Shown here: piece after piece, positions 16,180 to 49,222 of the stretch
Numbering within the stretch: position 1 is the first letter of the stretch
Layout: every line of letters begins with the position of its first letter
DNA from: Aradus depressus
Taxonomy: Eukaryota > Arthropoda > Insecta > Hemiptera > Aradidae
Reading direction: 5' to 3'
DNA: 64,000 bases
Assembly (NCBI GenBank): GCA_963662175.1
Contig: OY759216.1
Location: 50,423,087 to 50,487,086, forward strand
The notes under the pieces: model-generated
What the model was told of the DNA's origin: nothing
The model's database searches: none
What the model saw: only the letters and a program-made list of their open reading frames with translations
Made by a program: the position numbers and the translations under genes

Positions 16180-16439
16180 CTATTTTAAAGAATCGCCGCC
16201 TTGGTAAACCTCATTGAATTGACTCTGGGGCTCAAGCACTGTTACGAAACGTTGCATCTCTGGCCAGTCCTCACACTTCAAGTCCACACTGAACACCTGC
16301 TCCTCCTTCAACTCACTGATGATGGTGAGTGCAACACACCAGACTCGACCCTCCGGTCGCACCAGTTCAGCATTGTACACCTGAATGCATCCAACCATTG
16401 CATTGTCCTTGTTCTGACGGGGGACGCATGTGGACAATT
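16180..16439 (-). CDS. Micro-exon gene, last exon: second half of Cys-rich domain
   Basis: The acceptor tttcttcag is followed by 86 codons and a stop at 16180. Entry is in phase 1 (AA completes a codon begun in the previous exon). It contains four Cys in TCVPRQ, GCIQVYNAEL, VWCVALTI and VFSVDLKCEDW. The order CVP, C-x-x-(F/V)YN, C-(I/V)-x-L and a last Cys after an alternating strand fits the second half of DUF4773, an insect family of secreted Cys-rich proteins of unknown function. The end, QFNEVYQGGDSLK, is polar. The upstream Cys are in exons 20579-20457 and 20379-20284. Confidence 0.7.
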
Positions 16440-16449
16440 CTGAAGAAAA

Positions 16450-18148
16450 AAATATTAAACTTAAACTCCTAGCGGATTCTGGATAAACATATAAAAGTTC
16501 CTGTCGATACATTAATTCTATCGGGAATTATCATTTTCACAGTCATACATACAAATTTCTTCAGGTCAAAACTCAGCATCGAATTTTTGACCGATTATAA
16601 CTTCCCCTATATTTTGAATAGCTGTGGAAATAAGACGATTTTTTTTATAATGACAACCTTGTTAGCGTAAAGTCAAGTGTGAGCAGTATAATGTCTTAGG
16701 TTATGCGATGACGTTATTTTAGTGCAAAGTGCACTCTACTCCCGGTGTACATATGAGTACGGATACCACGGATAAAGCAAATTCACAGTTAACCCAAAGA
16801 CTAAAGTAAATATGGGTTTTTTATTTTTTAGAATTATATAATATATTTAACACATCATTTCTCGCATTTCGTTTTTGATTTTTTTAAAAATTAGCGATAA
16901 CAAACGTTTTTGGAAGTACTACTCCCATCATCGGTATCTATAATTTATATGTTATTCATGTTAATATTATGATGAGAATATTATGATAGACAGAAGGAAT
17001 GTTAACATAAAGAACATAGAAATAATAGATATTGATATTTTAGGTGAGTGCCCTCATATCCAGTCTACAATGAGGCTTAAACCAATACAGCCATTTTATA
17101 CAGACGGCTCTTCGCTTAGTGTATTATGTGTAGGTCTATTTTACTGTATAACTATTTTTATATTTATTTTAGAAATATAAAATGTATATAAAAAGGTAAG
17201 AAAAGTATTAGGATAATCAGTCTTTCTTTAAAAATTAGGCTTCCTTTATAATCGACCTTTAAGCAGATGCCCTTCTGTTTGCCGAAAACACCTCTACTAA
17301 ACGCACGATATATTCTGACCCGAACAAGAAATGTGGATGTGTTCTGAAATATTGTCAAAAGCAAGTTGAAAACACCTTTGGATGAAATGCTAGAAAAAAG
17401 AAACGAACAATCATCCCAGAGAAGTCTAAGAAACACAAATATTTTACTGTCCAAATACATTTTTTGCGTTCTGTGTAGATATAGTGGAAATACTAATGAA
17501 TAAAATAAAATGATAGATAAAACACTTTTTTTGAACACTTATATTGTCTAATTCCACAAGCATATACTTAAATGTGTACCGGTTTCGGTTTACGCCATCG
17601 TCAGCACAATCTTCAACAATAATGAATGTTCAACATTATTGTTGAACCTTGTGCTGACGATGGCGTAAGCCGAAACCGGTACACATTTAAGTATATGTTT
17701 CTGGAATTAGACAATATAAGTGTTCAAAAAAAGTGTTTTATCTATAATTTTATTTATTTCTACTTTTAAGACAATACATAGAAATGTTTTCGCCAGAGAT
17801 CTTGTGGAAGTTCATTGTAAATACTACTGAATAAAAACACTTAGAACAAGTCAAAATGTAATATTACCACCTGTCATAAGTCTGTATCCTGTACACTTGA
17901 CAATGCTCTAACCAGCAAAATATATTGTGTATTTTATATAAATATAGTGGCATTTTTTTGACTTGTTCTAAGCGTTTTTATTCAGTAGTATTTACAATAC
18001 TTAGAATTCTATCCTGTCGTACTATCGTACTCCTCCCTATATTTGTTGTTGTATGTATTTATAATATAGAAAGATGAAGGTTTTCAATGAAGTTTTTTCT
18101 ATGAATTTATGAATAAATCAATTATTACATTATTGTCGTTTTAAATAC

Positions 18149-18195
<47 letters not shown>

Positions 18196-18260
18196 AGTTG
18201 GATAAGGGATAAGATCCAATACACATTTTTTAATATTCATTTACTTCTAATATACCTCAC
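16450..18260. other. Intron with dispersed repeats and a large palindrome
   Basis: This holds the palindromic MITE at 17519-17740 and a pair of inverted words from about 17820 to 18000 (ttgacttgttctaagcgttt and its partner), plus an (AT)n run at 18150-18190. No further exon seen. Confidence 0.5.
17519..17740. mobile_element. Palindromic MITE (two arms of about 105 bp)
   Basis: The left arm (gaacacttatattgtctaat ... gtgtaccggtttcgg ... gatggcgt-like core) is followed by an almost perfect inverted copy ending in agacaatataagtgttc. The loop is only a few bases near 17630. No coding capacity. Confidence 0.85.
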
Positions 18261-18410
18261 TTAATCTCATCCAGAATTATTTCAACAAATTTCTGGAGAA
18301 GGGCTTCCTTCCAAGGAGTGCCTGAGTTCCCACAAAATTGTAGATCTCGCCACCGTCTCCAATAATAAAATGGACATAGCCACGCATTCTGGTGCCATTC
18401 GCTGGGACTA
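18261..18410 (-). CDS. Micro-exon gene, Cys-domain exon with an in-frame TAA
   Basis: The acceptor acaaaacag precedes a 150-nt exon that ends at gtgagg; both borders fit phase 1. The phase-1 frame reads VPANGTRMRGYVHFIIGDGG, then EIYNFVGTQALLGRKPFSRN and LLK, then TAA at 18279-18277, five codons before the donor. The strand pattern (FIIGDGGEIYN ... GRKPF just before the next exon's CVP) suits the middle of a DUF4773-like domain. So this allele is either truncated here, or skips this exon (the flanking junctions remain in frame), or the TAA is an assembly error. Another frame of the same stretch is also open but would need phase-2 borders that no neighbour has. Confidence 0.5.
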
Positions 18411-18590
18411 CTGTTTTGTATATAATCGAGGTGAGTGTCCATATGCAATGTATCATACAGTTTAAAATACCGATATTTTTGCACCATTTTTTTATTTTAA
18501 CAGTCAATAAATGCAATCAATAAATTTAAATGTATTATACTCTCATAACATTCTCCTTATTGCCTACTAAAATTAACTCCCACTTTCCAG

Positions 18591-18685
18591 GAATACTAAG
18601 ACGAGTCAGAAGACAAGATTTCGCAGTTCGATATATTGACAAAAAGTTAGCCCATCATGTAAATAATGTGTTTTCCATTCCCTAA
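18591..18685 (+). other. Coding-like open stretch on the plus strand, unknown
   Basis: After a good acceptor (aactcccactttccag) the frame entering in phase 1 reads ILRRVRRQDFAVRYIDKK and LAHHVNNVFSIP, then TAA. It lies antisense inside an intron of the micro-exon gene. No domain is recognised; it could be a chance ORF or a transposon piece. Confidence 0.22.
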
Positions 18686-18899
18686 TTTTTCACCCAACCA
18701 TTAACTATTTTTATATTTTACTTTGAATTTTGCTTACTCCACTAAATGTTTAAATTTTTCACCGATAATACATTTTTTTAATAAAAAATAAATGTGAAGT
18801 AGACGAAAGATATCCTTCTTTTGAGAAAAGTTTAAAATTAACTTGATAATGATAGTTATGTAAACAGACACTTTCTCAGCCTTTATTTATGTCTCCTAA

Positions 18900-20280
18900 A
18901 ATGCATTTTTTTAATAATATTTACATTTTGATCTAACTGACGTTTCGCCACATTCGGGCATTTTCAAAACGTTATTCCGTGTTTGAAACAACTACATCAC
19001 TGTCACATAATACATTACACTACAGCTTATTTATTTAGTTCAATTTATTAAACACTATTTGTATAATCAGTCAACAACAGGTGACCCATTGATAACTTCC
19101 AATTGAAGCTTTACATACATGTGGACAGCGCCGGTAGTTCAAAGGTAGCTGAGCCCAAGATCGCGGGTTAGAAACCCAGCCGAGGCACTTCGGTTTTTTT
19201 ATTTAGGAAGTGAAGATACCTTGAGCATGTCGTCCTTCGGATGGGACGTCAAGCGATGATTGAGCTTGAGCTTATCTTAATATTATATATGTGTCATTCT
19301 CGTTTTTTGTAGGCGTGACCCCCCCTCCCCCCCCAAAGTTGTGTTTTTGACACCGTTTAATCGATTTGTGTAACATTTTTGTGAAAGTAGCTAAAATTAT
19401 CAGGCAAAATGTTGTTCTACTTTGAAATTTCACTCTTTGATATTTTTTTTTGTAATTGTAAATTTATTTAGGGGGCAACTAAAAGGGCCCCACTCACTCC
19501 AATATTAGTCAATGCAATCATGGGGCAACCACTTTTCATATTTGAGGGCGCCGGTAGCTTAGTGGTATGCGTACTTGCCTTCTGAGCTCAAGATCGTGGG
19601 TTCGAAACCCGGCCGAGGCCCTTAGTTTATTTTATCTGGGAGGTAAAATAAACTTGAGCACGCCGTCCTTCGGATGGGACGTTAAGCGATGGTCCCGAGC
19701 CTATACGATGTTAGGTACTCTTCAAAGACCCCTACCCTATCCAAGGCGAATAAAAATTTAGCGTAGGCAAAATTTAGGACTTCCATTGGGCTCAGGTCCA
19801 CCAGAGCGACAAAAGATCCCTCTGTTAGCAAACGATATGACCTCATAGTTATAGTCCGGGCATGTCACAATAACTAACTGTAATGAAATTATCAAGTGTC
19901 ACCTGTTATAGACTGATTACACAAATAATTTTAAAACATTGAATTATATTGGAGAATATTACAATGATAGAGTTGTGTTAAACATGACAGCAAGTTTCGA
20001 TAATGCTCATACTAAATTTATTCTCGATAAATTCATTATATCGATATTTATTAGGGTACTTAAGTAGAGCCGCTCTTCTCTGGTCCCCACGTTAATGGGT
20101 GCCGTCCTTATGGGGTTTTGAATTTAAATATAAAATTACCTGTCTATACATTCATTACAACGACAGTATTAGACTTAATCGATTTTGTCGAAATTACAAA
20201 TATTTAAAAAAATCTAAAATTTGTTAAAACTGTAGATTAGCCTATACAAACTAATATTGTAAAAATATATAATCATAGCA
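18900..20280. other. Intron with SINE-1 pieces
   Basis: A shortened SINE-1 copy lies at about 19121-19268 and a nearly complete one at 19546-19875. The rest is AT-rich, with a short C-run at 19321-19340. Confidence 0.55.
19546..19875 (+). mobile_element. SINE-1 copy, nearly complete
   Basis: The head gcgccggtagcttagtgg, B box gttcgaaac, body ccttcggatgggacgttaag and tail tagtccgggcatgtcac are present. The telomere-like end is lost. Clear target duplications were not identified. Confidence 0.85.
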
Positions 20281-20283
20281 TAC

Positions 20284-20379
20284 TTAGCCACAGGGTTGGA
20301 TCCATTATTTCTTCAGCATCGATAAGTACAACATCATTGAGGTTATTTTGTTTACTATCGAGCGGCAAGTAGACACAAT
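20284..20379 (-). CDS. Micro-exon gene, 96-nt exon (Cys domain)
   Basis: Acceptor ttgttacag, donor gtatgc, phase 1 at both ends, 32 codons. After the split Asp codon it reads CVYLPLDSKQNNLND, then VVLIDAEEIMDPTLWL. It supplies the fourth Cys in the CV-x-L context of DUF4773. Reading through the donor hits TGA after four more codons, which supports splicing here. Its exit base A joins in frame both to the exon at 18410 (ATA) and directly to the one at 16439 (AAA). Confidence 0.72.
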
Positions 20380-20456
20380 CTGTAACAATAATCCATACAA
20401 TACAAAAAAATAACAATATATACGACAAAAATATATATTTTGTTTATTTATCCTAC

Positions 20457-20579
20457 CTCTCTCCCAATTTTTAGTTTTAATTGGAAGACAAAGTCCGCAA
20501 TGTCCAAATTTACAAGACACGTAGGGTAATCCGAATGGATAAGAATCTTCAATATTTTCCACCGTATACTCTTCTACTT
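20457..20579 (-). CDS. Micro-exon gene, 123-nt exon (start of Cys domain)
   Basis: Acceptor tcctttttag, donor gtagga, phase 1 to phase 1, 41 codons. It reads VEEYTVENIEDSYPFGLP, then YVSCKFGHCGLCLPIKT and KNWERG. The C-x-F-G-x-C-G-x-C cluster followed by a Trp and then a CV in the next exon is the N-terminal signature I associate with DUF4773. Only a 77-bp intron separates it from the next exon, an ordinary insect intron size. Confidence 0.75.
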
Positions 20580-20885
20580 CTAAAAAGGAAAAAATATATA
20601 CATATACTGTAATAAATACATATTTAAAGTACTTATTGGGTTTTAATTTTGTTTTTAAATTTTCAAACTTTAATTGGATACGTCATACAATTTCGTACAT
20701 CGAAATAGCTTATAAATAATATAAAAATACACATAAGTTAAATAAATACTAATAGTTTTTTTTTAAAGAAAAGAAAATAAATGATCATAAAATATCAAAT
20801 TCCTAAATACAAAATGTACAATTTATATCTTTAATTATAAATATTTTATTTTTATGTGAGAGATAAATAATAAATCTTCTTTCAG

Positions 20886-21001
20886 AACGATATTTCGGTG
20901 CGATGAGGGGCCCTCAGATTTCAAAGACCGACGTAAAGAAGAAACAAATAAAAATAATTAATGAAAATAACAAAAGTACTAAACAAAATTCATTACGATA
21001 G
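20886..21001 (+). other. Coding-like open stretch on the plus strand, unknown
   Basis: Acceptor-like aaatcttctttcag leads, in phase 1, to RYFGAMRGPQISKTD and then VKKKQIKIINENNKSTKQ before TAG. A donor-like gtaaag follows the first 47 nt. No family recognised. Confidence 0.22.
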
Positions 21002-21649
21002 AAATTATGGGATATTTGTGGAGGAGCTCTACCAAGAAAATAAATAGGAAAAAAAAACAGCTTTTATTTACAAAACACGACTTTTAAATAATAAAAGTAT
21101 CTAAACAAAGCATTAATATAAACATTTTTAATTTAATTTTAATTTTTTTATTATCTATTGCTTTCAAGTGGGGAAATGGTAATGAGGATGGTAACGGATT
21201 TTTGATTTTAGGGGAGGGGGGGGGGGGGGGATGAATATAATATTTCTGATTTATAGAAAACGTAAAAAAAAAAGTTGGTGAATCATTGGCAATGTACTTC
21301 CTCAGCACGGATTAATCAATTACATTTTCGCTCTCCATCCAAAACGAATCGGCAGTTTGAGCTAAAAATCACATCGGCAGTTATTGGGGTCGTTGAATTG
21401 AGCCTCTCCCCTCCCCTTTGGCTGAAAATGAATAGGTGTCGACCGATAGGTGTCATTCTATCGGCAGTTATCGTGTTCACAGACCCATACACACAGCCAG
21501 AAAACATTTTTTTTTTTTTTTTCATTTTTGAAATTTGTGTTTCAGAAAATTGTTAGGAATTTGTGACCGATTACATAACTTCCCCTATACTTCATATAGC
21601 TGAATTAGTAAAAAATCACTCGTAAATACTGTGACTCCCGGTTATTCAG

Positions 21650-24760: not shown

Positions 24761-25433
24761 GAGAGAAAATTTAATAAGGAACATTTATGGTGGGAACCAT
24801 TTTTTCATTAGGACTAACCGTTTCTGGGTAAAGCAAGGAAATGTGTAAAATAATGTGTTTTAAAACTACATTTAAATATCAATCATGGAACCTGCGAAAA
24901 ATTATATTTTATATAAAATATGTATTCTAGTTTTTTGTATAACTCCATTACTCGAAAATATTTTTGATTAGGTCATAAACATATTTTAAAATGTACTGAG
25001 GCCCCAAGAGTGAACTAGTCTCAATTTTCGGCCGATTTCGGCCAAAATCTAATCAGATCAACTTAGGTTGTATAGTACTCGGTATGTGTCGTATTCATTC
25101 GAAATTTCTAGTTCATAGCTAGAATAATATATATATATAATGCAGCGAGGTGAGAGGATCTTTGGCGGTGTAGGTGAGGTGAGTGACGTCACCGTGGAGG
25201 GTGAAAAGGGTGTGTAAGGGCTGGGGTAGTTTCTGAATGGACTGTATATGTCTGCCCATAGTGATTCTCCCTCTATATATTCTGTCTAATGTCTAATCCT
25301 ATTGAAAAAATATTTTAAGCCATTGTCTTGTTATGATCTATTTATTTATATTAATTTCATTAATTATGTATAGAGTGTAATAACAATATGATGCTTTTTT
25401 TTATCTAGGTACTTATTTCAACGGATTATTTAC

Positions 25434-27806
25434 CCTGGATTCGAAGTAAGTTATTATTCTTGTAGTCTTCATAATAGAGAATAGGGAATTTTTCATCACT
25501 CTGTTGTATGTTTGACTGATTGTCTCCACACTGATCAGGTGGAGTTCCAACCCCCAACGTAGCGCCGTCATGGATAATATTGTTTACAAAATTTGGTATC
25601 TCAGCTCCATACATAATAAAAACATTGTTGGCTTGTATGTTGTTCACTACGGGTGGATTTGGACAGGGGGGCGGTAGGGGTTCTGAAGTGGTAGTTGGTT
25701 TTGTAGTGCAAGTTGGTGGTTCTACAGTGGTAATTGTTGGTTCTGTAGTGCAAGTTGGTGGTTCTATAGTGGTAATTGTTGGTTCTGTAGTGCAAATTGG
25801 TGGTTCTACAGTGGTAATTGTTGGTTCTGTAGTTGGGTCGTATGTGGTCGTTGGTTCTGTAGTGCTAGTTGGGTCGTATGTGGTCATTGGTTCTGTAGTG
25901 CCAGTTGGGTGGTATGTGGTCGTTGGTTCTGTAGTGCCAGTTGGGTCGTATGTAGTCGATGGTCCTGTAGTCCTAGTTGGGTCGTATGTGGTCGTTGGTT
26001 CTGTAGTCCTAGTTGGGTCGTATGTGGTCGTTGGTGCTGTAGTGCCAGTTGGGTCGTATGTGGTCGTTGGTTCTATAGTGCCAGTTGGGTCGTATGTGGT
26101 CGTTGGTTCTGTAGTGCCAGTTGGGTCGTATGTGGTCGTTGGTTCTGTAGTGCCAGTTGGGTCGTATGTGGTCGTTGGTTCTGTAGTGCTAGTTGGGTCG
26201 TATGTGATCGTTGGTTCTGTAGTGCCAGTTGGGTTGTATGTGGTCGTTGGTTCTGTAGTGCTAGTTGGGTCGTATGTGGTCGTTGGTTCTGTAGTGCTAG
26301 TTGAGTCGTATGTGGTCGTTGGTTCTGTAGTGCCAGTTGGGTCGTATGTGGTCGTTGGTTCTGTAGAGCCAGTTGGGTCGTATGTGGTCGTTGGTTCTGT
26401 AGTCCTAGTTGGTTCTGTAATGCCAGTTGGATCGTATGTGGTCGTTGTTTCTGTAGTGCCAGTTGGGTCGTATGTGGTCGTTGGTTCTGTTGTGCTAGTT
26501 AGGTCGTATATGGTCGTTGGTTCTGTAGTGCCAGTTGGGTCGTATGTGGTCGTTGGTTCTGTAGTGCCAGTTGGGTCGTATGTGGTCGATGGTTCTGTAG
26601 TCCTAGTTGGGTCGTATGTGGTCGTTGGTTCTGTAGTGCTAGTTGGGTCGTATGTGATCGTTGGTTCTGTAGTGCCAGTTGGGTTGTATGTGGTCGTTGG
26701 TTCTGTAGTGCTAGTTGGGTCGTATGTGGTCGTTGGTTCTGTAGTGCTAGTTGAGTCGTATGTGGTCGTTGGTTCTGTAGTGCCAGTTGGGTCGTATGTG
26801 GTCGTTGGTTCTGTAGAGCCAGTTGGGTCGTATGTGGTCGTTGGTTCTGTAGTCCTAGTTGGTTCTGTAATGCCAGTTGGATCGTATGTGGTCGTTGTTT
26901 CTGTAGTGCCAGTTGGGTCGTATGTGGTCGTTGGTTCTGTTGTGCTAGTTAGGTCGTATATGGTCGTTGGTTCTGTAGTGCCAGTTGGGTCGTATGTGGT
27001 CGTTGGTTCTGTAGTGCCAGTTGGGTCGTATGTGGTCGTTGGTTCTGTAGTGCCAGTTGGGTCGTATGTGGTCGTTGGTTCTGTAGTGCCAGTTGGGTCG
27101 TATGTGGTCGATGGTTCTGTAGTGCCAGTTGGGTCGTATGTGGTCGTTGGTTCTGTAGTGCCAGTTGGGTCGTATGTGGTCGATGGTTCTGTAGTCCTAG
27201 TTGGGTCGTATGTGGTCGTTGGTTCTGTAGTGCCAGTTGGGTCGTATGTGGTCGTTGGTTCTGTAGAGCCAGTTGGGTCGTATGTGGTCGTTGGTTCTGT
27301 AGAGCCAGATGGGTCGTATGTGGTCGTTGGTTCTGTAGTGCCAGTGGGGTCGTATGTGGTCGTTGGTTCTGTAGTGCTAGTTGGGTCGTATGTGGTCGTT
27401 GGTTCTGTAGTGCCAGTTGGGTCGTATGTGGTCGTTGGTTCTGTGGTGGAGGGCAGAATGACCTCTGGCGGCGTTGTGCAGACTGGACAAACTGGGCATC
27501 CAAGTGGAAGAATGAGAGTGGTGGAGGGCAGATTGACCTCTGGCGGCGTTGTGCAGACTGGACAAGCTGGGCATGCGAGTGGAGGAAGGGGAGTGGTATT
27601 CGGCAAATCCGTTGTCTCCTCAGATCCAGAGTAACTTTCTAAGGGATCGATGTCTGCAAATAGCAGGATCAGGAATACACACAATATGTCCTCCAAGTCT
27701 GTGATGTCAACAAACTCAGCGTCTGGAAGGAAACCGTAGTAAGCGTTGCTACTGTCTTCATCATCGTACAAATCTCTCTTAAGCCTTTTCGATTCTTTGG
27801 AATCCC
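25434..27806 (-). CDS. Micro-exon gene, 2,373-nt mucin-like repeat exon
   Basis: Acceptor ctatttttcag, donor CAGG|gtaaat, phase 1 at both ends, 791 codons. It starts DSKESKRLKRDLYDDEDS with a furin-type RLKR site, then a short hydrophobic run (ILCVFLILLF), two copies of a Cys/Pro block with CPVCTTPPEV, about 45 units of a 12-residue repeat of the type TTEPTTTYDPTG, four Cys-spaced units (TITTVEPPTCTTEP) and a non-repeat end with DQCGDNQSNIQQS and YYEDYKNNNLLRIQ. Dense Thr and Pro predict heavy O-glycosylation, as in mucins and insect peritrophic or salivary proteins. Reading past the donor would add only Gly-Lys before a stop. The repeat number is probably variable. Confidence 0.8.
25836..27450. 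repeat. Coding minisatellite, 36-bp unit, about 45 copies, with a 450-bp higher-order duplication
   Basis: The plus-strand unit is gttggttctgtagtgccag followed by ttgggtcgtatgtggtc. Rare variants recur exactly 450 bp apart: ttgtgctagttaggtcgtat at about 26489 and 26939, and gtcctagttggttctgtaat at about 26401 and 26851, so a block of about 12.5 units was duplicated recently. Because 36 is a multiple of three, all six frames stay open; only the minus frame matches the flanking exons. Confidence 0.92.
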
Positions 27807-27851
27807 CTGAAAAATAGAAAATGTAAAAATGAATAATTTTATATCAAAGCT

Positions 27852-28155: not shown

Positions 28156-28984
28156 AAAGATTTTGTCCTGTTGCTCGATGTACGCACATTCAAACTTTTC
28201 GATCACACAGTAACGACAAAAAAAGTGTTTAGACAATTGGTCGATTGTGTACACATAGGATATTCTCCCTTGAAGAAACCAGGTAAACAGAGTCGATACT
28301 ACAAGATAATATTCAGAATATAGTAAGATTTTTCTCAGAGAAGAGCCTTGTTACCAACTTTTGAATTTCTCCTTTTCGTATTGATATTCACAAATATCCG
28401 ATATATATATATATATATATGAGCAGTTCCATTACTTTTCGGAAAAACCGTGCGCACAAGGTTTTTCAATTATGCTGCCGATTTTTTGTGTGAAAGTACG
28501 TGCGAAAAAATGACGATCTACAAAGTTTCAGCACGATTGAGATCAACTCATTGGAGTTAAGATTTTTTATTGTCTAAAAAAAACCGCTATTTAGGCGAAG
28601 TTTAATAGTTATTTCCTTGCCATGTTTCGACTAAAAAAATGTCTACTATAGGGTTTTTTTTTATCGTCAGGATGTCAGCTTTTCAAAAAAAAAAAAAAAC
28701 CGACTAATTTTTTCACATCCTCATGCATTAGAGCTAATATTAGCTACGCGTGATATTACAAAAATCGCTCGAAATCGAACAGCTTTAAAAAGCTATTGAA
28801 ACAATTGTTTCAAGCTGGGATTTTTTTTCAAGTATTTATACAGGTTGGGGAAGTTGGAAAAACTACACAAAAAACGAAATTTCTATGTTCTAATCGAATT
28901 AATTCACCTAGGAATTTTGCTATTTTTGAAAAAAGAGATTCTTTCTATTAACGATAACTTTTTTCTATGTGAACGAAATCGACG

Positions 28985-29066
28985 ACCACATATGACCCAA
29001 CTAGGACTACAGAACCAACGACCACATACGACCCAACTGGCACTACAGAACCAACGACCACAATAT
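28985..29066 (+). repeat. Inverted fragment of the mucin minisatellite
   Basis: Just over two 36-bp units (accacatatgacccaactag, gactacagaaccaacgacc, acatacgacccaactggcac) lie on the plus strand 1.2 kb from the mucin exon, opposite in orientation to the exon copies. They are embedded in unrelated AT-rich sequence. Confidence 0.9.
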
Positions 29067-32133: not shown

Positions 32134-33154
32134 TGTTACGGATAATGTCCAAAATTGGGTAATGTGTACATTACCCGGGTATTGTATACATTACCCACCA
32201 AGGACGGGTAAAGCCCGATGAAAACTACGTTACCCGGGTAGTGTGCACTTTACTCAAGGCCTGTTGGGTAAAGTGAGTGAAAGTGGGTAATGTGACAAAA
32301 ACAAAATTTCAATTCTCAAAATTTTAATATAACGACTTATTTTTGCAAGGGTTGCTGCCGTGACACTTGGAGTTGCACAACATACCTGCGGCTCTGCATT
32401 TACACTTTTTGGTTGAACACTTAAGCTTGCAATGACATTTAGTAAATCCTTGTCCGCCACAGAACGATTGTGCAGTAGCCATCAGACGTGAAGACATCGT
32501 TTCATGACATACTGAAGATAATTCGATTAGTGGTTCTGGGCAAACTGTAAACTGGTTTCTAGTAAATAGGTCTTTACAGGTCCCATTTTCATTTGCTAGT
32601 TTGTATAAGCCCTTGCTGGAGTCAAAATCCACAATTGTAGCAATGAGATTACGAAAATCGCCCTTTGCTTTGTCTACCTCGGGGATATGAATGCGAACAG
32701 TTTGTCCTTGTATAGCAGGAGGGAATTTGGTGATGGAAGTTGTTAGCATTTTTTTTGCTTGATTTTGCAAACAGTCCACAGCTTTTCTACGATTACCCGC
32801 AATATCTTGAGACTTGCGACATAGTTCGCATTGTCCGCCATCATCACATAAATGACATTGATCTATTGGTTCGTGGTCTTCAATTTCGCTAAGATCTTGT
32901 TCATCTTTCTCATTGTCATTAGTTTCAGTTCCCCCCCCCCCCCCCCCCCCCCCTACAGAAGCTTCACGAATAGCAAGCTCTAAGTCATCCTCTGACTGTA
33001 GATTAGCAATTACATGTTTAGGTAGTGATGACTATCTCACATTACCCAAACACCCCTGGCTAATGTACACACTACACAATTTTAGTGTGTTGTTATTCAG
33101 TTTTTGCACATTACCCACATCGATATAACCCAATTTTGGTCATTACCCTTAACA
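32134..33154 (-). mobile_element. Ginger-type DNA transposon derivative (1,021 bp)
   Basis: The ends are TGTTACGGATAATG and, inverted, TGTTAAGGGTAATG, followed on both sides by related sequence (CCAAAATTGGGT). TATA flanks both ends (32130-32133 and 33155-33158), a 4-bp target duplication. A TGT start, 4-bp duplication and KRBA2-like C-terminus fit Ginger elements, which carry retrovirus-type integrases. The integrase core is missing. A poly-C run of about 20 at 32931-32953 interrupts the frame. The site is a dispersed repeat whose empty copy lies at about 33260-33330. Confidence 0.8.
32324..32920 (-). pseudogene. Ginger transposase C-terminal part (zinc-binding tail)
   Basis: The frame includes CHLCDDGGQCELCRKSQD, then TVRIHIPEVDKAKGDF, and finally CHCKLKCSTKKCKCRAAG with MLCNSKCHGSNPCKN. 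The closely spaced Cys tail and the CxxC pair are the pattern of the KRBA2/SCAND3-like end of Ginger-type integrases. The catalytic D,D,E region lies upstream in intact elements and is absent here. Confidence 0.7.
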
Positions 33155-34993: not shown

Positions 34994-34994
34994 T

Positions 34995-35954: not shown

Positions 35955-35999
35955 CGGACAGTTCTTCAGTCATCTGTTTTATTAACAAATCCCTGTCCC
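35955..35999 (-). CDS. Micro-exon gene, 45-nt exon
   Basis: The acceptor ttctgtttag and the strong donor gtaagt bound 45 nt in phase 1. It encodes DRDLLIKQMTEELS, with split codons on both sides: Arg (C|GG) with the previous exon and Gly (G|GG) with the mucin exon. Together with KR from the previous junction it forms RNKR|D, a furin-type site, so the peptide between this site and RLKR in the mucin exon could be released. Confidence 0.72.
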
Positions 36000-37047: not shown

Positions 37048-37074
37048 GTTTATTTCTCATTCTATAAGTGATCT
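37048..37074 (-). CDS. Micro-exon gene, 27-nt exon
   Basis: The acceptor atgtttctag and strong donor gtaagt bound 27 nt. In phase 1 it encodes ITYRMRNK between split codons (Glu GAG on the left, Arg CGG on the right). Basic; contributes RNK to the furin-type site completed in the next exon. A second AG two bases inside is a less likely acceptor because it breaks the frame. Confidence 0.65.
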
Positions 37075-37720: not shown

Positions 37721-37759
37721 CATGGTTTCCGTGTAATTCCTGATTAAGAAGCTGATCTT
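37721..37759 (-). CDS. Micro-exon gene, 39-nt exon
   Basis: Acceptor atatatttttag, donor gtatgt, phase 1 at both ends. It encodes DQLLNQELHGNH between split Glu codons. Both splice sites are strong and the length is a multiple of three. Confidence 0.7.
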
Positions 37760-39025: not shown

Positions 39026-39201
39026 CTACCTACAAGTGCCAGTCTGTTCCACAGGACTGTAAGTAGTCGGAACAAATGTTAAATTTAAACTTACATTGAT
39101 GTCAATGGCACTCGGATGCTCGAGCTTCCAATTGGTACCCGGAAATGTCTTATAACCCACTACCGAGAGATCCCCACAGGCGTGTTGTGAAAATGGTTGT
39201 G
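39026..39201 (-). CDS. Candidate alternative terminal exon of the micro-exon gene
   Basis: The strong acceptor cttttatcttag is followed by a frame open only when entered in phase 1, like all neighbours. It reads QPFSQHACGDLSVVGYKTF, PGTNWKLEHPSAIDIN, VSLNLTFVPTTYSPVEQTG and TCR, then TAG at 39028-39026. A perfect gtaagt after DIN would give phase 0, and a gtaggt near the end would give phase 1 but create a stop with either following exon. So if used it most likely ends the protein, producing a short isoform without the mucin region. It could also belong to an unrelated gene. Confidence 0.45.
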
Positions 39202-40813: not shown

Positions 40814-42128
40814 ACAATACGTTTCATCCTCTTTCATATTATTCATGACAGTTTTTGCCGAGATGTCAAAAAAGGTCGCCTGTCGCCTTTACGGACCCAA
40901 TTTGTCTTAAAATTCCCCCCAAAAAAACTTCGAACTTTACCGAGTAAGGCTTAGTCCAGTCATATTAGATCAAAAAGAGGGTAAATCTCGGAATGAAAGG
41001 TAATAAACTATAAATTTATTTGTAATAATGATAATAATAATAGTAATAAATATAATGTTTTAAATAATTAGTTAATAATGAAGTTTTTTTTCATAATTAT
41101 ATTTTTTTTAATGAATAATTAACTTTATAAACCTAGCTATTTATTGGGATTCGCGGTTGACCTTACATTATGACGTATATGACTGAGCGCTCTGCACTCT
41201 TCGCGCTCTACCTCAAAAACTGTTAATCGTATAAAAAAATGCACAAGAGCTACTTTGTAGAGAATTTTATGCTCTACAACTTTTATAATAAATGCTAATA
41301 TCATTTAAAGCATAGGAAACGAGATATTTCCAAAAAACCGGTTTTCGCGACCTTTGACCTTGAATATCTCAAGACGCGGATACGAGATCTTATGAGACTT
41401 TTGAGCCAACTTTTATAATGTCAAATCAAAGGTTTATACAAATTTATAGCTTATTAGCTTTCATTCCGAGGTGAAATACCTATTTGACTGGTCTAGCTCC
41501 TTTTATCAGCAGTAGCAGGGGGTGGGTGAAGGGTGGGGAGGACAAATTTGGTCCTTCTTTCGGATGTCATGAACATTTCAAAAAAATATTCTTGACTTTT
41601 ACTCTAAGGACCCTTCAATTTAATAACCGACTCAACTAAGTACAAAAATATTAGTTTTCACAACAGCAATTTTTTGAATATCTAACGGCGCGGAAATTCA
41701 TCTGGGACAGGTCATGATGCTGTGTTTACAGTTGACTATGAGTTTTTTTTTTCGTTTTTGACATAAAAAACAGTAAAAATTGTTATGAAAGTCCTAATTT
41801 TGTGCACTAGAAACTAAAGCAGTAAGCGTAATACAGTAAAAACAAGGACTTCATATTTATTCATTGATTATTTTGCAAAAATTATAATTCTTTATAGCCT
41901 CTACTAAAAGTGTATGTCAATTATCGAATGAAAAACATGTTATATACAACTTTTTTTTTTGAAAAATCATAACTTTTACAAAATTCAACTTACTTTTAGA
42001 GTTCATTCGTTGTTGAAACTTTGAAATCATTTTCTTTCCTAGAAGAAAAAAAAAAAAAAAACAATCAAAAACAAACATCTTAAAACTTTGTTCAGTTAAT
42101 TTATTAAATAATGTATATATTTCTTCAC

Positions 42129-42257
42129 CAGTTACATAATGAAGTATCTCTTGGGATGAGTCTATCTTTGCTATGGCGGGCATGTTCGGCACTTGGGCAA
42201 GTATTTGTTTCTCTGGTAAATACTGGTTCCATTTTGTATTAGGTGTTTCAGTCGGTT
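42129..42257 (-). CDS. Micro-exon gene, 129-nt exon
   Basis: An acceptor with a long pyrimidine tract (ttttttttttcag) and the donor ACTG|gtgaag; phase 1 at both ends, 43 codons. It reads PTETPNTKWNQYLPEKQI, then LAQVPNMPAIAKIDSSQ and EILHYVT. The sequence is polar and Pro-rich, without Cys. Reading past the donor adds only sequence that soon becomes poly-Phe from an intron T-tract, supporting the splice site. Confidence 0.72.
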
Positions 42258-42840: not shown

Positions 42841-42864
42841 TGGCCAACGAATCATAAGGTGCTT
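42841..42864 (-). CDS. Micro-exon gene, 24-nt exon
   Basis: Acceptor ttttctttttcag, donor gtaagc; in phase 1 it encodes APYDSLA between split Glu (G|AA) and Lys (A|AA) codons. Both sites are strong; the short length is the only reason for doubt. Confidence 0.68.
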
Positions 42865-42923
42865 CTGAAAAAGAAAATAAAGTTAATAAAATTCTAAGGA
42901 ATTTTTGATTTATAGTTACTAAC

Positions 42924-42941: not shown

Positions 42942-42983
42942 CTCGCTGTTAAAAAAATAAAAATAAAATAAATAATAGATTAC

Positions 42984-43046
42984 CATGGACTCTTCCTTCA
43001 GGATATCTATTGATTCCAATATTATTTTCTGTATATGTTGCATAGC
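42984..43046 (-). CDS. Micro-exon gene, 63-nt exon
   Basis: Acceptor atttttttag, donor CATG|gtaatc, phase 1 to phase 1. It encodes YATYTENNIGINRYPEGRVH. The reading is open only in this phase combination with both neighbours. Confidence 0.7.
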
Positions 43047-43814: not shown

Positions 43815-43844
43815 TTCTGGAATGTCTCCATGTGATAACTTGAT
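43815..43844 (-). CDS. Micro-exon gene, 30-nt exon
   Basis: Acceptor gatgttttag, donor AGAA|gtaaat; encodes QVITWRHSR in phase 1. The pyrimidine tract is short, so this one is less certain than the 39- or 63-nt exons. Confidence 0.58.
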
Positions 43845-43849
43845 CTAAA

Positions 43850-44633
43850 ACATCATCCTAGATGAATAACAAAATTACAAATAACTTAAAAACATAAATA
43901 ACTCCATTTAAATACAAGACTAACGAAGCAGGTCAACCCGATCAAAAGAAACAGATCATATACCTAAAAGTAAACAAATGAATAAACTCAATAAATCGAT
44001 GGAAGTTAACAAGGGTGTTCGAATATTGTAAAGATGTAACCTGTCCCGGGTCATCCAACGATCAATGGACACATGAATTGACTTAGCAATAATCGTAAAT
44101 CATTAGTTTGCATTAATATATTTTATTTAAAAAAAAACAAAAACATAATACTGTTATTTCTATAAACCGAAAATATTACAAGCTTTTCTCACCAAACAAG
44201 TAAAATTAAAGGTCGAAAAAGCAAAATGAGGACTTAAAGATCAATAATTTTCATAGATTTGTTTCTTTTGTTTCCGAAAGAATACAATTTTGAGGTACAG
44301 GTTTTCTCGTTAAGTGAAATGAGCCTTCACATGTATGTATGTATATGCGACAACGGAACTTGTACTAGGTAGTACTGAAGACACTGACGAGAGGGTTAAC
44401 ATTTAATTTTTTCACATAAATCCTAGCCTTAAACGAAAAATATAATATATTATGAGGAATGCACATTCAAAACGTTGCAGATGTCACAATATATGTACAT
44501 TTTTCAGGGGGAAAAAAAAAAAAAATTTCTACTAAACAAATGATATTGTAGGCATAAAGTAAGAAATTAAGAGAATGTTTAAAAGTTATTATTATTTAGT
44601 ATTATTATATTTTAAAAGAAATTTAAACTTCAC
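43850..44633. other. Intron, AT-rich, nothing recognised
   Basis: No SINE, transposon end or exon was recognised here. Confidence 0.5.
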
Positions 44634-44669
44634 TTGAGTTCCACCAAATCGTTGTAAATGCCAACAGAG
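44634..44669 (-). CDS. Micro-exon gene, 36-nt exon (hydrophobic)
   Basis: A good acceptor (cagttttgtcttgcag) and a fair donor (TCAA|gtgaag). In phase 1 it encodes LLAFTTIWWNS, a hydrophobic stretch that could be the end of a signal peptide or a short buried segment. It joins the 30-nt exon with an Asn codon. Confidence 0.52.
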
Positions 44670-44949
44670 CTGCAAGACAAAACTGCTACATTGTATACAT
44701 ACATGTATAAAAGCAGAAACTTATTTTCTTAAAGAAAATTAATTCATATTCTTATAAAAACCTGATAAAAATGTCAATAACAATACAAGAAATAAATTAT
44801 ACTACACCATAATAATTAATAAAGGATGAAAAAAAAATAATAATTTTCTTTAAGAAAATATGTAAACATGTCATATTATTATAAAAAATCACTCGTTATA
44901 AAAATAAAATTTGTCATAATATTTTGATACTATAAGAATATAACATTGT

Positions 44950-45400
44950 TTCCTTTGATTTTAACCATTAGTTCCTTCGGTTCAATTTTGTTCTGAATTT
45001 GCCAACATCTGGTTTCAGATAGGCAATCCATTCTGATATCGGCTTACTTATTTTCTGGAATTCCAAAATGTGTTGGAGCTGTAGCTAAATGAATATCCTT
45101 CATGTCTTCTAATTTAACACCCTCTTTCAGCACATTAATGTTAATCCGCAATGTTGCCAGTTCCTTTCGCCTTTCATTACTCTACCCAAGTTTTCAGCTG
45201 TAAGACGGAGCTGTGAACTTGCTGAGATTCCCAGCTTGTGTTGATTAGCATGAGCAAAAAAGGAGTACATTTTAAAATCATCTGATGACATTACCGGAGA
45301 ATCATCACTAATCACAAACCATTTTATCAACAGAACTCCCAATTGCATTATCAAACTGCACCTACGAAATGGGAAACGATCTTATACATCCAATGTTGTT
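44950..45400 (-). pseudogene. Degenerate coding stretch of unknown family
   Basis: Minus-strand frames read LLIKWFVISDDSPVMSSDDF, KMYSFFAHANQHKLGIS, SSQLRLTAENLGRVMKGE and, after a frame change, LEDMKDIHLATAPTHFGIPE. It is protein-like over 130 or more codons but has a frameshift and stops. Possibly part of a DNA transposon or an old gene copy; I could not place it. Confidence 0.4.
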
Positions 45401-45526
45401 TTGGTTCACGAGGGTCCTCAATAGCTGCCTAACACATTAATGTTGAAAACTTTGTGTCCCGACATTTCTGTGTACATGTTAGTTAGTTATTATGACTCAT
45501 GCCAGGGCTTTAACTACAAGGTCATA

Positions 45527-46031
45527 CATGGGCGTAGCCAGGGGGAAAAAAAACAATATAAAAATTAAATAAACTAAAAAAATAGTTTTTATTAAAAATG
45601 CATTGCATTAGAATGTACATGTACAAAACAAGATATATTAAATTTTTTAAAATATACATGAATTCGATCATTTCATTTCCTCGCTCAGAATCTTCATGTA
45701 TGTTATACTTTATACTCTTAAAGCTGATTTTACATGAGCAGTAAAAATGCAAATCGCAGCAGCAGCAAATGCACGTTATTGGTCATTTAATTCTAGAAGA
45801 ACAGAAAACACAGGGTGCATTTGCTGCGCTTTGCATTTTTGCTGCTCACGTAAAGTCAGCTTAAGTATTACAGTCAGTGGTTACCTCAGGGGGAGCTTCT
45901 AGAGGTCCGAGTCTCCCAAATTAATAACAAAAAGTCTGCAGCGCTCGGAAGTCTATACCCCCCCCCCCCCCCCCCCCCTCCTGTAACCTATCTTTGCCTC
46001 CCCCCTGCTCAAAATCCCGGCTACGCCCCTG
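45527..46031. mobile_element. hAT-like MITE inserted in the SINE
   Basis: Ends CATGGGCGTAGCCAGG and, inverted, CAGGGGCGTAGCCGG. The word gtcata is repeated at 45521-45526 and 46032-46037. It contains a poly-C run (45957-45978) and a second element inside it. Confidence 0.8.
45717..45864. mobile_element. Short MITE nested inside the MITE
   Basis: Long imperfect inverted arms: taaagctgattttacatgag ... aaatgcaaatcgcagc on the left; gctgcgctttgcattttt ... cgtaaagtcagctta on the right. This gives three levels of nesting (SINE, MITE, MITE). Confidence 0.78.
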
Positions 46032-46329
46032 GTCATATACTACCAGAGCGCTCTTTCTTCACTCCGGTGAACATGAGCCCGACTCTACTATGGGAGTTCT
46101 AAATTTTGCATACTCAATATTTTTATTCATCTAGGGTAGTCTTTAACGAGTACCTGACATCGAACAAGCTCGGAACCATCGCTTAACGTCCCATCCGAGG
46201 GACGGCGTGCTTAAGTTTATTTTACCCCCCAGATCAAATAAAATAAGTGCCTCGGCCGGGTTTCGAACACGCAATCTTGAGCTCAGTAAGCAAGCCGGCA
46301 TACCACTGAGCTACCGGCGCTCTCATTTA

Positions 46330-47050
46330 TGTGTATTAATATCATGACCATGATTTTTGATTAAAGAAAATGTGACGTGGCCATTACGAAAGGGGGAAGA
46401 GGGAGGAATAATCTATAAGCGTGGTTGGTATAAGAAAGTTCTGTAATGGCTACGTCACATGTACTTTAATTTTTTCTCCATCCTCCACTCGATGCGGAGT
46501 TTTCAACAAAACTTCATAGTTTCTATCCTCCTAATAAAAAAATTAAAAAAAAAACTCCCGATAGAATGAATCTACCAACACAATATTCTACAAGACTTTT
46601 TTAGTAGGTACCTATTTACTGACAATTTTATCAATAATTACGTCATTTCCCAGTACCTTGTGTGTACGAGATGAGCAGAATGCTAATAAGTATCTTGTCT
46701 GTCATACCGGATCCCACTGAAATATATCTTGAAACATCACCAACTGATACCAAAGCCATTTTGATATGCTTCGTTAATTACATCCTAAAGTGTTAAGAAA
46801 AAATATATATATTTTTATATATTTCTTAAGCGTTAAACCTGTCATAAAAAAGTGATACTTGACTCTATTTTATGAGGTGGAAAAGAGATATAAACAATGA
46901 AATGTCCTCTACTCTGTCAATATGGACTCTTAAATAGGTTCATCATTATATCTTTTATGGATTGATAAGCAGTTTCATTTTACATTAAACATCAAAGCCA
47001 TAAACTTCTTCAAGGAGTGAAGTTTATTAAGATCCCATAAGTAGTAGACA
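46330..47050. other. Intron, dispersed repeats
   Basis: Contains the repeat of 3600-3780 in the other orientation (46370-46460) and AT-rich sequence. A 9-nt AG/GT-bounded candidate near 46712 was not accepted. Confidence 0.45.
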
Positions 47051-47053
47051 GTA

Positions 47054-47258
47054 TGAGGTTTTGTGACTTATGTCCGTGCTTTAACAATGAGGTCATATTG
47101 CCTACAACCAGAGCGCTCTTTTGTCACTCACTAGACATGAGTAGGACTCTACTGTCGAAGATTTTACCTACCCAGGTTTGGTTACCTAAGCTTAGGGTAT
47201 TTATCCGAAAGACGGAGTGCTCAAAAAATCAAAGGGCCTCGACCGGGTTTCGGTCCAG
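47054..47258 (-). mobile_element. SINE-1 fragment, diverged, minus strand
   Basis: Words acaatgaggtcatattgcct, agagcgctcttttgtcact and ctcgaccgggtttcgg are in minus-strand SINE-1 order; the middle is deleted. Confidence 0.6.
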
Positions 47259-47282
47259 CGATTAAAAAAGAAAAACAGAAGA

Positions 47283-47650
47283 AAAAAGTGGGGTTTACTA
47301 TCTAAAATTTAGTTTTTGTAATTTTGTTTATATAAGTTAAACTGGGAGACAATTTAAAAATGGGGTAAAAGAACACGTTTTAACACAACACACACCTCAC
47401 TGAAATAAAATCGTAAAAAAATTTAATTTTTACAATTTTTTAATTAGGATTTTCAGATTCTCCACAAGAAAACTAGGTTTTTCGGTATTTACAGTTTTCT
47501 TGTACGAGCAAAAGTTTTCGAGATATTGGTCTTTGAAAGTTGCGTTGTATGTAAAATCAATTGGGAGCGGGCGGATTCATAGAGATCTCAGCCCGCAAAC
47601 CGGACGAAAGTGGGGGCGACCCACCCTGTTCAATATTCTGGCTACGCCCT
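47283..47650 (+). pseudogene. Penelope-like element 3' fragment, copy 1
   Basis: Nearly the same sequence as 47960-48290 (aagtggggtttactatctaa, actgggagacaatttaaaa), but with a deletion after the gaacacgttt word and more damage. See copy 2 for the domain call. Confidence 0.6.
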
Positions 47651-47811
47651 TCTCAATTTCACATGTATCTTTTCATATTGAACCAATTATGTACTTTTAT
47701 ACTTCCCCAGTTATACTCCTTACTTTAACTTTCTAAGGGAACTTAACATTTTTAGCCGAGATATTTTGAAACACTTAATAGAAAATAAAGAAAAACTGTT
47801 TAAAAAAAAAA

Positions 47812-48592
47812 AAAAATATTGTCTATTTCACAAAATATATATAATATGGGAGTACTTTCGGTATTGCTACCATCTTCAGAGGCGATGTACTTAAAAAAGA
47901 GGACTGTTGGGTAGGTTCCAGAACAAATAATACATTATACGAACATCTCAACAGCACTAAAGAAAAAAGTGGGGTTTATTATCTAAAATGTAGTTTTTCT
48001 AATTTTGTTTATGTAAGTCAAACTGGGAGACAATTTAAAAATAGGGTAAAAGAACACGTTTCAGAAATAGGCCAAAACATCGACACAACACACACCTCAC
48101 TGAAATAAAATCGTAAAAAAATTTAATTTTTACAAAATAGATTCTTCACAAAGAAACTAGGTTTTCCGGTACTTTTAGTTTTCTTGTACGAGCAATAGTT
48201 CTCGAGATATTGGTTTTTGAAAGTTGCGTTTATGTAAAATCAATTGGGAGTGGATTCATAGAGATCTCAGCCGCAGGGCGACGATAGCACTCTACCTATC
48301 TCTGTGCTATCTCTGTGCTATCGTCGCTTCTTCTGGGCCTAAGCACATTTTACAAGAAACCGCTTTTATTTATGACCTAATCAAAAATCTTTGTAGAGAA
48401 AACTAAACCTCCTACCTTTAACTCCTGCCTGAGGAGGACCCCTGAGGAGGCGGTGGTGTTCACCAGCCGTCTCATCAAGTGACTCAAGTGGTGGTTCTGT
48501 TTTTCTTTGTGATTATATTTCCTAGTTGTGATGTACTTCATAGTTGGAAATTATGTAATAAAGGTGAAAAAAAAAAAAAAAAAAAAAAATGA
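47812..48592 (+). mobile_element. Penelope-like element fragment (GIY-YIG endonuclease end) with MITE arm and poly-A tail
   Basis: A half-copy of the palindromic MITE (gggagtactttcggtattgc) opens the block. From about 47930 the frame reads TNNTLYEHLNSTKEKSGVYY, LKCSFSNFVYVSQTGRQF and KNRVKEHVSEIGQN. GVYYLKC, YVSQTGR and the basic KNRVKEH fit the GIY-YIG endonuclease of Penelope-like elements (canonical Y-I-G here V-S). It ends in a long A-run at about 48568-48590. The upstream reverse transcriptase is absent. Confidence 0.68.
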
Positions 48593-48599
48593 CACATTC

Positions 48600-49125
48600 T
48601 GTATTAAATACGATTTTTGATATATTTTCTTGTTTTCGAGACACAAGAAAAACCTTCCTGATTTTTTTTTTTTTTTTTTTTTTTAACAATATTTTTAGAT
48701 GATTCCTTGATTAACCCGAAAATGGTTACTATTAGCGAAATGGTGGTTCTTGCCAACCACGTTTTTACACATCACTTGCTCACCCCCTCGAGGAAGGGCC
48801 GACATATTTTGAATGAGCTGCCTTGTACATTTTCGGTTCTACACACAAATCACTCATTTTATGTTATTAAATTCTATAAAATTTCGCGTCGATATATTCA
48901 CAAATTCACATTTTTTCTTTTTTTATTTGTGTTATGGGTTTGGGATACGTGTAATTCCGGTCCAACAACAAATTCCTGTCTGATTACGTAACTTCTCATT
49001 GTGAAGGATCACTTCACTCTTCATTAATGTTAGTTTTACAATTATGTAGATTTTTTATTGAAGTGAAAACTTCTTTAGCACCGTTGTGATCTGAAACTCG
49101 ATGAAACGAAAAAGCGACACTATTG

Positions 49126-49175
<50 letters not shown>

Positions 49176-49201
49176 GTTGTTTTATTTAGTCATCTGTTTA
49201 C
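48600..49201. other. Intron, repeats and (TA)n microsatellite
   Basis: A poly-T at 48662-48684, the dispersed repeat family at 48760-49010 and a (TA)n tract at 49132-49172. Confidence 0.6.
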
Positions 49202-49222
49202 TAACATAAGGACTTCTTGTAA
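49202..49222 (-). CDS. Micro-exon gene, 21-nt exon (most upstream one found)
   Basis: A very good acceptor (ttctcttcactttcag) and donor gtaaac bound 21 nt; in phase 1 it encodes TRSPYV and exits with A, giving Thr with the 36-nt exon. Its incoming base is unknown, so at least one more exon, presumably with the signal peptide, lies further right. Confidence 0.58.

Follow-up and report, generated by a model that had tools for sequence, protein, structure and literature searches.

Many short symmetric internal exons behind a secreted-type start are found in the bicycle effectors of aphids, phylloxerids and scale insects, for which the exon-phase convention was taken from Stern & Han 2022 (PMC9168663), a paper in which the word "mucin" is absent; some bicycle proteins also lack the C-Y-C-like (CYC) motif (PMC13041983, excerpt). 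Symmetric short exons in secreted-type proteins likewise occur in the schistosome MEGs, in which ~80% of the coding sequence resides in exons of 6–36 bp and for several products heavy O-glycosylation and a mucin-like character are predicted (PMC5825161, excerpt). Class 1-1 symmetry is dominant among exon-shuffled extracellular animal proteins, with phase-1 introns flanking the internal exons and another close to the signal-peptide end (PMC8001218, excerpt). Among hemipteran mucin-like salivary proteins, SFMLP from Sogatella furcifera comprises 719 residues, 22.8% of which are Ser (PMC9332473, excerpt). Proteins with the Pfam domain DUF4773 include the product of a highly abundant transcript in secreting locust pleuropodia (PMC6966819, excerpt) and a component of octopus skin mucus (PMC11431876, excerpt), both of which fit a secreted role. 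Among the literature records listed, no insect micro-exon mucin stood out, which does not establish absence from print.

The window analysed here is the whole 64,000-nucleotide stretch from Aradus depressus. On its minus strand, 12 exons with GT–AG borders, several of them so tiny that simple gene finders would hardly see the gene, span ~30 kb (46759–16180) and join into one open frame of 1108 residues. All 11 introns are of the GT–AG type and interrupt a codon between its first and second bases (phase 1), and each of the ten internal exons is a multiple of three and entered in phase 1. The coding total is 3327 nt, with no stop before the final TAG (16182–16180). The mucin exon accounts for 2373 nt of this total, the nine other internal exons for 591 nt (17.8%) and exons of ≤36 nt for 51 nt (1.5%). 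We read the locus as a single gene, the product of which would be secreted and mucin-like and end in a DUF4773 domain, a reading to which we assign a probability of roughly 0.57 on sequence evidence.

The chain starts with exon 1 (46657–46784; phase-1 donor 4.4), which carries the start codon and a signal-peptide-like N terminus. It continues through exon a (42984–43046, 63 nt; acceptor 8.5, donor 5.0), which is also supported by frame, micro-exon b (42841–42864, 24 nt; 11.8 and 6.1), exon c (42129–42257, 129 nt; 13.8 and 5.3) and micro-exons d (41994–42038, 45 nt; 17.0 and 8.7), f (37721–37759, 39 nt; 5.4 and 8.5), g (37048–37074, 27 nt; 8.8 and 7.9) and h (35955–35999, 45 nt; 12.6 and 11.7, the highest donor in the chain), of which c, d, g and h are open only in phase 1. 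The mucin exon (25434–27806, 2373 nt; 13.0 and 6.5), lying within an ORF at 25426–27843, is followed by three DUF4773 exons at 20457–20579 (123 nt, three Cys; 9.5 and 8.6), 20284–20379 (96 nt, one Cys; 5.1 and 2.8, both weak) and 16180–16439 (260 nt, four Cys; acceptor 12.4). All acceptor and donor scores rest on approximate splice-site matrices. Exon GC exceeds that of the exon's own flanks in 10 of 12 cases, with exon f equal to its flanks and exon g lower, and AATAAA/ATTAAA-type signals lie near the last exon at 16003 and 15943.

The first-pass annotation had described a minus-strand, in-frame chain of short exons running into Thr/Pro and Cys exons, and this was borne out: short GT–AG exons continue in one frame into 27806–25434 and then into three Cys-containing exons up to the TAG at 16180, with symmetry and phase 1 as claimed in 10/10 internal exons. 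Its exon count and outer limit had to be revised. Instead of at least ten short symmetric exons of 18–129 nt, nine of 24–129 nt are supported; one 18-nt phase-1 candidate passed loose site scores and sits inside the last exon. The limit at 49222 corresponds to a 21-nt stretch (acceptor 13.2), which was rejected as a coding exon because the start exon, taken from the acceptor at 46784, contains stops in all three frames. This stretch could be 5′ UTR, and use of the acceptor at 46784 would mean that a 5′ UTR exon precedes exon 1. A further exon-like stretch of 107 nt (39095–39201; acceptor 10.4, donor 8.6; open only in phase 1) was left unplaced: it is entered in phase 1 and left in phase 0, breaking the all-symmetric rule, and no phase 0-to-1 successor was found before 37730.

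At the N terminus, translation may begin at the ATG at 46759 or, more likely, at 46705. Among the nine minus-strand start candidates listed, exon 1 scored highest for hydrophobicity (KD mean 3.57 over eight residues), and the same scan listed none on the plus strand; by this hydrophobicity scan the N terminus is a candidate signal peptide. A rival start exon at 44054–43964, also upstream of the chain, is weaker (KD mean 3.02, donor 4.0). That the most hydrophobic start with a phase-1 donor heads the chain, and that no listed candidate separates the mucin exon from the first two DUF4773 exons, argues for a single gene. Next follows a Cys-free, net basic stretch of ~133 residues, encoded by the seven short symmetric phase-1 exons a–h and by the very start of the mucin exon. 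The joined protein contains two furin-type sites, RNKR and RLKR. The former (joined residues 141–144) is formed across the g/h junction, which likewise favours the one-gene reading.

The RLKR site lies within the mucin exon, which further encodes an acidic stretch, a hydrophobic segment (ILCVFLILLFA), two CPxCPxC units preceding the repeat core, the repeats themselves and a Cys-Thr linker. The core consists of 538 residues of TTEPTTTYDPTG-type units, reflecting a 36-nt repeat present 45 times (a 12-residue Thr/Pro unit). Thr, Ser and Pro together make up 66.7% of these residues, so that the core is a long Pro/Thr/Ser tandem repeat of the kind by which mucins are defined. The ILCVFLILLFA segment is odd for a secreted mucin. 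A further in-frame acceptor lies at 27653.

The Cys-rich end, which the first-pass annotation had not identified as DUF4773, belongs narrowly to this family (PF15998), as the last three exons joined (159 aa) reach 27.4 bits (E 5.2e-6), clearing the gathering cut-off of 27 bits by only 0.4. The match is near-complete (profile positions 3–111 of 118) and includes eight Cys. The score fell to 13.9 bits for the last exon alone and to 12.6 bits when the middle, 96-nt exon was omitted; a 245-aa query including the upstream linker scored 25.9 bits, below the cut-off. The match thus needs all three exons, which supports the joined model, and the 96-nt exon, the sites of which were too weak for the exon scan, is placed by this match. 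The published DUF4773 proteins are consistent with a secreted product. Pfam matches below cut-off, among them BREX_BrxC_helical, BppL_N and DUF6248, were rejected. No NCBIfam family was found for the DUF4773 part, and no Pfam family reached its cut-off for three reading-frame guesses near 18.2–18.4 kb and one piece near 20.3 kb.

Protein searches returned no match at E up to 10 for either the joined C part (67 candidates) or the joined N part (121 candidates). For a retroelement ORF used as a control, 2641 of 7961 scored candidates matched at E up to 1e-10, and hemipteran proteins among the 120 matches listed indicate that insects are present in the database searched. A PDB sequence search gave one row, a CHCHD5 chain at E 0.27, which was not accepted as real. 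Rfam and tRNA scans yielded no hits, and a SINE 30-mer occurs in 11 copies in the window (≤3 mismatches) and had no match in the genome and viral contig collections searched.

The main alternative, which we regard as unlikely, is that two neighbouring genes have been joined, namely one for a short micro-exon secreted protein (46.8–35.9 kb) and a separate mucin–DUF4773 gene (27.8–16.2 kb) with a missed first exon. The 8148-nt intron between them (35955 to 27806) might contain overlooked exons or a boundary between genes. It holds transposon-like ORFs, as judged by eye, and ten further phase-1 symmetric candidate rows, several of them within such ORFs and none taken into the chain; the search for additional exons covered four other gaps. 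Homology lends no support to the junctions 5′ of the mucin exon, and typical DUF4773 proteins are shorter than the 1108-residue product. A short form is also conceivable, in that the frame beyond the 39201 stretch reaches a stop after 57 residues in all. Against two genes, the donor of micro-exon h and the acceptor of the mucin exon score highly and are both in phase 1, and the weak start candidate inside the gap (31144–31054) is less hydrophobic than exon 1 (KD mean 2.77), with a similar donor (4.6).

It is improbable that the mucin and DUF4773 exons are the sole genuine ones and that the micro-exons upstream of them are open stretches which have splice-like borders by chance. The first-pass annotation had taken agreement in frame as strong evidence, arguing that one wrong phase would break the chain; this overstated the case, as the exons were chosen to fit the phase. 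Chance would also accommodate the modest acceptor of exon f and donor of exon 1, as well as the low GC of exon g. Independent tests of the chain are the DUF4773 match and dinucleotide shuffling. On the minus strand at 33.6–46.7 kb, nine phase-1 symmetric open candidates were counted without overlap, compared with four in phase 0, three in phase 2 and one on the plus strand, whereas 100 shuffles of this region averaged 1.21 and never exceeded 4. At 15–50 kb, 13 such candidates contrasted with a shuffle average of 3.71 and no more than 10 in any shuffle. Seven of the nine are exons of the proposed chain, the other two being a form of the 39201 stretch and 39056–39030.

A decayed gene appears still less probable: repeats within the introns, the absence of a transcript and the weak sites of the 96-nt exon would suit a pseudogene, but the coding sequence is free of premature stops and all introns retain GT–AG borders. 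Least probable of all is a diverged bicycle effector (aphid/scale) or MEG-type micro-exon effector, for which the secreted-type start, a possibly identical exon phase and a nearby retroelement, the named eukaryotic relatives of which are all Hemiptera among the 120 matches listed, would speak, and against which stand the comparisons given below.

The preferred reading of a single gene thus derives from one frame across 12 exons and 11 phase-1 introns, the excess of phase-1 candidates over shuffles and the other strand, the three-exon DUF4773 match, the junction-spanning RNKR, the position of the start exon and the exon GC. Counted against it were the lack of any transcript or relative, with no matches for the joined N and C parts, the upstream junctions unsupported by homology, the marginal DUF4773 score, the weak 96-nt exon sites, the 8148-nt intron, the rival start at 44054–43964, the ill-fitting 39201–39095 stretch, the GC of exons f and g, ILCVFLILLFA and the approximate nature of the splice-site matrices. 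If one gene is present, signal peptidase would remove the N terminus and a furin-like protease would cut off the propeptide. The repeat Thr residues may be O-glycosylated to give a stiff, hydrated chain, cross-linked or anchored by the CPxC units and DUF4773, and the product might form an extracellular gel or coat, such as in saliva, the gut lining, or an egg or embryo secretion. As every internal exon is frame-neutral, the protein can tolerate skipped or added micro-exons and a longer repeat without being broken, and such changes may be used for variation. We tentatively propose, as a doubtful extension, a new type of insect secreted precursor, in which the micro-exons encode a variable furin-released propeptide, followed by a length-variable mucin and a DUF4773 anchor, with splicing and repeat expansion each diversifying a different part. 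The end of a secreted mucin would provide a plausible setting for the unexplained DUF4773 domain.

The earlier interpretation of one gene that opens with a secreted-type start and has a mucin core ahead of a Cys-rich end agrees with our best reading, but its phase-based contrasts do not hold, nor does the claim that most of the gene is invisible to ORF-based annotation: the mucin exon, the bulk of the coding sequence, is a long ORF, and the case instead illustrates how parts of such genes escape. Phase 1 had been taken to set the locus apart from bicycle genes, which is probably a matter of notation: if "phase 2" in PMC9168663 is a GFF phase and codon positions are counted from 1, it denotes the junction described here as entry in phase 1. 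With this numbering, all ten internal exons start at codon position 2, as in bicycle genes. This suggests that uniform exon phase alone is no marker of a bicycle-type effector, and phase labels have to be put on a common footing before two families are declared alike or distinct. The locus shares with bicycle genes the short symmetric exons and secreted-type start but differs in its large mucin exon and DUF4773 domain and in having no CYC-like motif in the joined protein. The published gene-structure classifier (cut-off 0.72; coefficients from PMC9168663; exons counted as phase 2) returned 6e-31 for the gene as a whole, 0.0012 once the mucin exon was left out and 0.33 for the N module only, and still lower scores with exons counted as phase 1. 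MEGs are similar in their symmetric short exons, and differ in the share of coding sequence in such exons, ~80% in the excerpt cited above versus 1.5% here. Nor does phase 1 mark an unrelated case, given the dominance of class 1-1 symmetry in exon-shuffled extracellular proteins; the phase-1 introns flanking internal exons and near the signal-peptide end are shared with these proteins, whereas the units here do not correspond to known folded modules and two introns interrupt the DUF4773 match. SFMLP, likened by description rather than by sequence, is also of the secreted type and rich in hydroxy amino acids, but Ser-rich where the present protein has a 12-residue Thr/Pro repeat. The DUF4773 proteins are matched, marginally, by the eight-Cys C-terminal part across three exons, which here follows a long mucin repeat and a basic stretch encoded by micro-exons.

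Inspection by eye and a splice-site scan of the minus strand of the region revealed short exons, which were joined into one chain. Exon 1 (46759–46657, 103 coding nt) is followed by internal exons at 43046–42984 (63 nt), 42864–42841 (24 nt), 42257–42129 (129 nt), 42038–41994 (45 nt), 37759–37721 (39 nt), 37074–37048 (27 nt) and 35999–35955 (45 nt), then by the mucin exon (27806–25434, 2373 nt) and three exons for a putative DUF4773 domain (20579–20457, 123 nt; 20379–20284, 96 nt; and the last exon, 16439–16180, 260 nt with TAG at its end), all on the minus strand. The joined chain comprises 3327 nt and encodes 1108 residues without an internal stop. Each of the ten internal exons has a length divisible by three and is entered after one codon base; exon 1 is left and the last exon entered in that same phase, so that 11 of 11 introns are in phase 1. 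The continuous frame that the first-pass annotation had proposed, from the short exons through the mucin exon into the Cys exons, was thus recovered. Intron lengths range from 77 to 8148 nt, acceptor scores from 5.1 to 17.0 and donor scores from 2.8 to 11.7 (n = 11 each), with the weakest acceptor and donor both belonging to the 96-nt exon.

Because the chain exons had been picked to fit, candidates were counted against shuffled sequence. Candidates were non-overlapping, 12–200 nt long, with an acceptor score of at least 5, a donor score of at least 3.5 and a sum of at least 13, as scored with approximate matrices; 100 block-wise dinucleotide shuffles, which do not preserve long pyrimidine tracts, served as the control. 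The minus strand at 33.6–46.7 kb yielded nine phase-1 symmetric candidates, versus four for phase 0, three for phase 2 and a single candidate on the plus strand, with a shuffle mean of 1.21 and maximum of 4. Only this class was reached by 0/100 shuffles, the next being phase 2 to 0 (1/100). Seven of the nine lie in the chain, and the others are 39056–39030 and a form of an exon-like stretch at 39201–39095. Over 15–50 kb, 13 phase-1 symmetric candidates were counted (shuffle mean 3.71, maximum 10); this number is probably inflated by other open frames, since three further phase classes also exceeded all shuffles (0 to 1, 8; 1 to 2, 9; 2 to 0, 9; each 0/100).

The stretch at 39201–39095 (minus, 107 nt) has good borders and is open in phase 1 only, but its exit is in phase 0. 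Between it and 37730, the search gave no following exon that would take up phase 0 and restore phase 1, and reading through its donor meets a stop once a total of 57 residues is reached. A cassette, an alternative end and a relic are the possible readings of this stretch; as an alternative terminal exon, it could give a short, mucin-less form.

When joined, the last three exons matched Pfam DUF4773 with 27.4 bits at an E of 5.2e-6 (profile positions 3–111 of 118), the family cut-off being 27. By itself, the final exon scored 13.9 bits, the first and last without the middle one 12.6 bits, and inclusion of the upstream linker lowered the match to 25.9 bits, under the cut-off; the Pfam search gave no DUF4773 match for the first two joined. 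As the cut-off is passed only with all three exons, homology backs the last two junctions, narrowly, and is confined to them, the junctions further upstream being without such backing. The 159-residue piece contains eight cysteines (positions 23, 28, 31, 43, 78, 91, 108 and 129).

The mucin exon encodes an acidic part, the hydrophobic run ILCVFLILLFA, CPxCPxC units and a Thr/Pro repeat of 538 residues with a 12-residue unit (Thr+Ser+Pro, 66.7%). Internally, 434 nt are duplicated exactly with a shift of 450, which points to a recent expansion or to an effect of the assembly. Use of an in-frame phase-1 acceptor at 27653 (minus, score 8.3) would drop 51 residues, among them RLKR and those of the hydrophobic run; the tract upstream of this acceptor is what is translated as ILCVFLILLFA, which may represent a former intron end absorbed into the exon. 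About two units of the 36-nt repeat lie in opposite orientation at 28982–29062, within the intron some 1.2 kb upstream. Antisense to the exon, 25535–27634 (plus) is open for 699 codons, probably as a by-product of the stop-free repeat.

The start of exon 1 was the most hydrophobic of nine minus-strand listings in a hydrophobic-start scan (8-residue Kyte-Doolittle mean 3.57), which listed none on the plus strand. Another, weaker start exon that may be used lies upstream of the chain at 44054–43964 (3.02 vs 3.57; donor 4.0 vs 4.4). Since none of the three frames stays open when exon 1 is read from its acceptor at 46784, translation must begin inside this exon, and the stretch at 49222, the outer limit given in the first-pass annotation, can be at most untranslated. 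Downstream of exon 1, the micro-exons together with the beginning of the mucin exon encode 133 Cys-free residues with a net charge of +6 and RLKR at the end; an RNKR site arises where the 27-nt exon is joined to the 45-nt exon after it.

Searches with the N and C parts of the joined protein gave no relatives in a protein database that includes hemipteran proteins, consistent with fast evolution but also with a wrong join. The gap search covered gaps other than the 8148-nt intron, in which the splice-site scan lists ten phase-1 symmetric rows, several of them, by eye, in transposon-like ORFs; additional exons may therefore lie there. Overall, we assign a probability of roughly 0.57 to a real, well-formed gene for a secreted mucin-like DUF4773 precursor whose propeptide is largely micro-exon-encoded, confidence being slightly lowered because the 96-nt exon has poor splice sites and a competing start exon exists; two separate genes and a pseudogene became marginally more probable as alternatives. 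The product would be secreted and its precursor cleaved, the mucin part is predicted to be glycosylated, a gel could form, and splicing may yield variants.

Elsewhere in the window, ORFs at 52467–54230 and 55496–56056 (both minus) encode reverse transcriptases (Pfam RVT_1). The former showed 53–56% identity in the best 20 of 2641 matches; among the 120 of 2641 listed, named eukaryotic entries were all Hemiptera (Ranatra, Uroleucon, Sipha and Schizaphis; 48–56%), and one match was named after a Pantoea assembly. The DNA is thus likely to come from a hemipteran. A SINE-like repeat occurs at 11 places across the window, some copies carrying a tRNA-like stretch by eye, with no tRNA call by ARAGORN, and some ending in units of AACCT, which is complementary to TTAGG, the telomere repeat of arthropods. 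Twelve 75-nt tandem copies (99%) at 6975–7877 (plus) are followed at 8237–9394 (plus) by a 385-codon open stretch, Ser/Pro/Glu-rich by eye, that begins near a hydrophobic run and is possibly another secreted protein; Pfam returned only a sub-cut-off ATG14 match. The big intron also contains an open stretch of 235 codons that ends in a Cys-rich part (32324–33031, minus); Pfam gave no family for it with E values of up to 1, and it resembles Cys-rich parts of transposon proteins.

In the literature, a DUF4773 transcript ranks with the most abundant of those upregulated in locust pleuropodia that secrete (PMC6966819); the domain is also recorded from the skin mucus of octopus (PMC11431876) and in a table of markers for haemocyte clusters of the oyster (PMC12064177). 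The phase contrast previously drawn with aphid bicycle genes is probably one of notation: their exons are described as starting with codon position 2, termed "exon phase 2" (Stern & Han 2022, PMC9168663), which, read as GFF with positions numbered from 1, gives the same junction as here. The bicycle classifier with published coefficients gave 6e-31 for the whole gene and 0.33 for the N module (cut-off 0.72), and the joined protein contains no CYC-like motif. In schistosome MEGs, as summarized in one source, symmetric 6–36 bp exons hold ~80% of coding sequence (PMC5825161), compared with 1.5% for such small exons here. In the accounts cited, exon-shuffled or secreted animal proteins show, as a general feature, class 1-1 symmetry and a phase-1 intron close to where the signal peptide ends (PMC8001218, PMC1626468). 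The parts of this gene are of known kinds; their combination is unusual.
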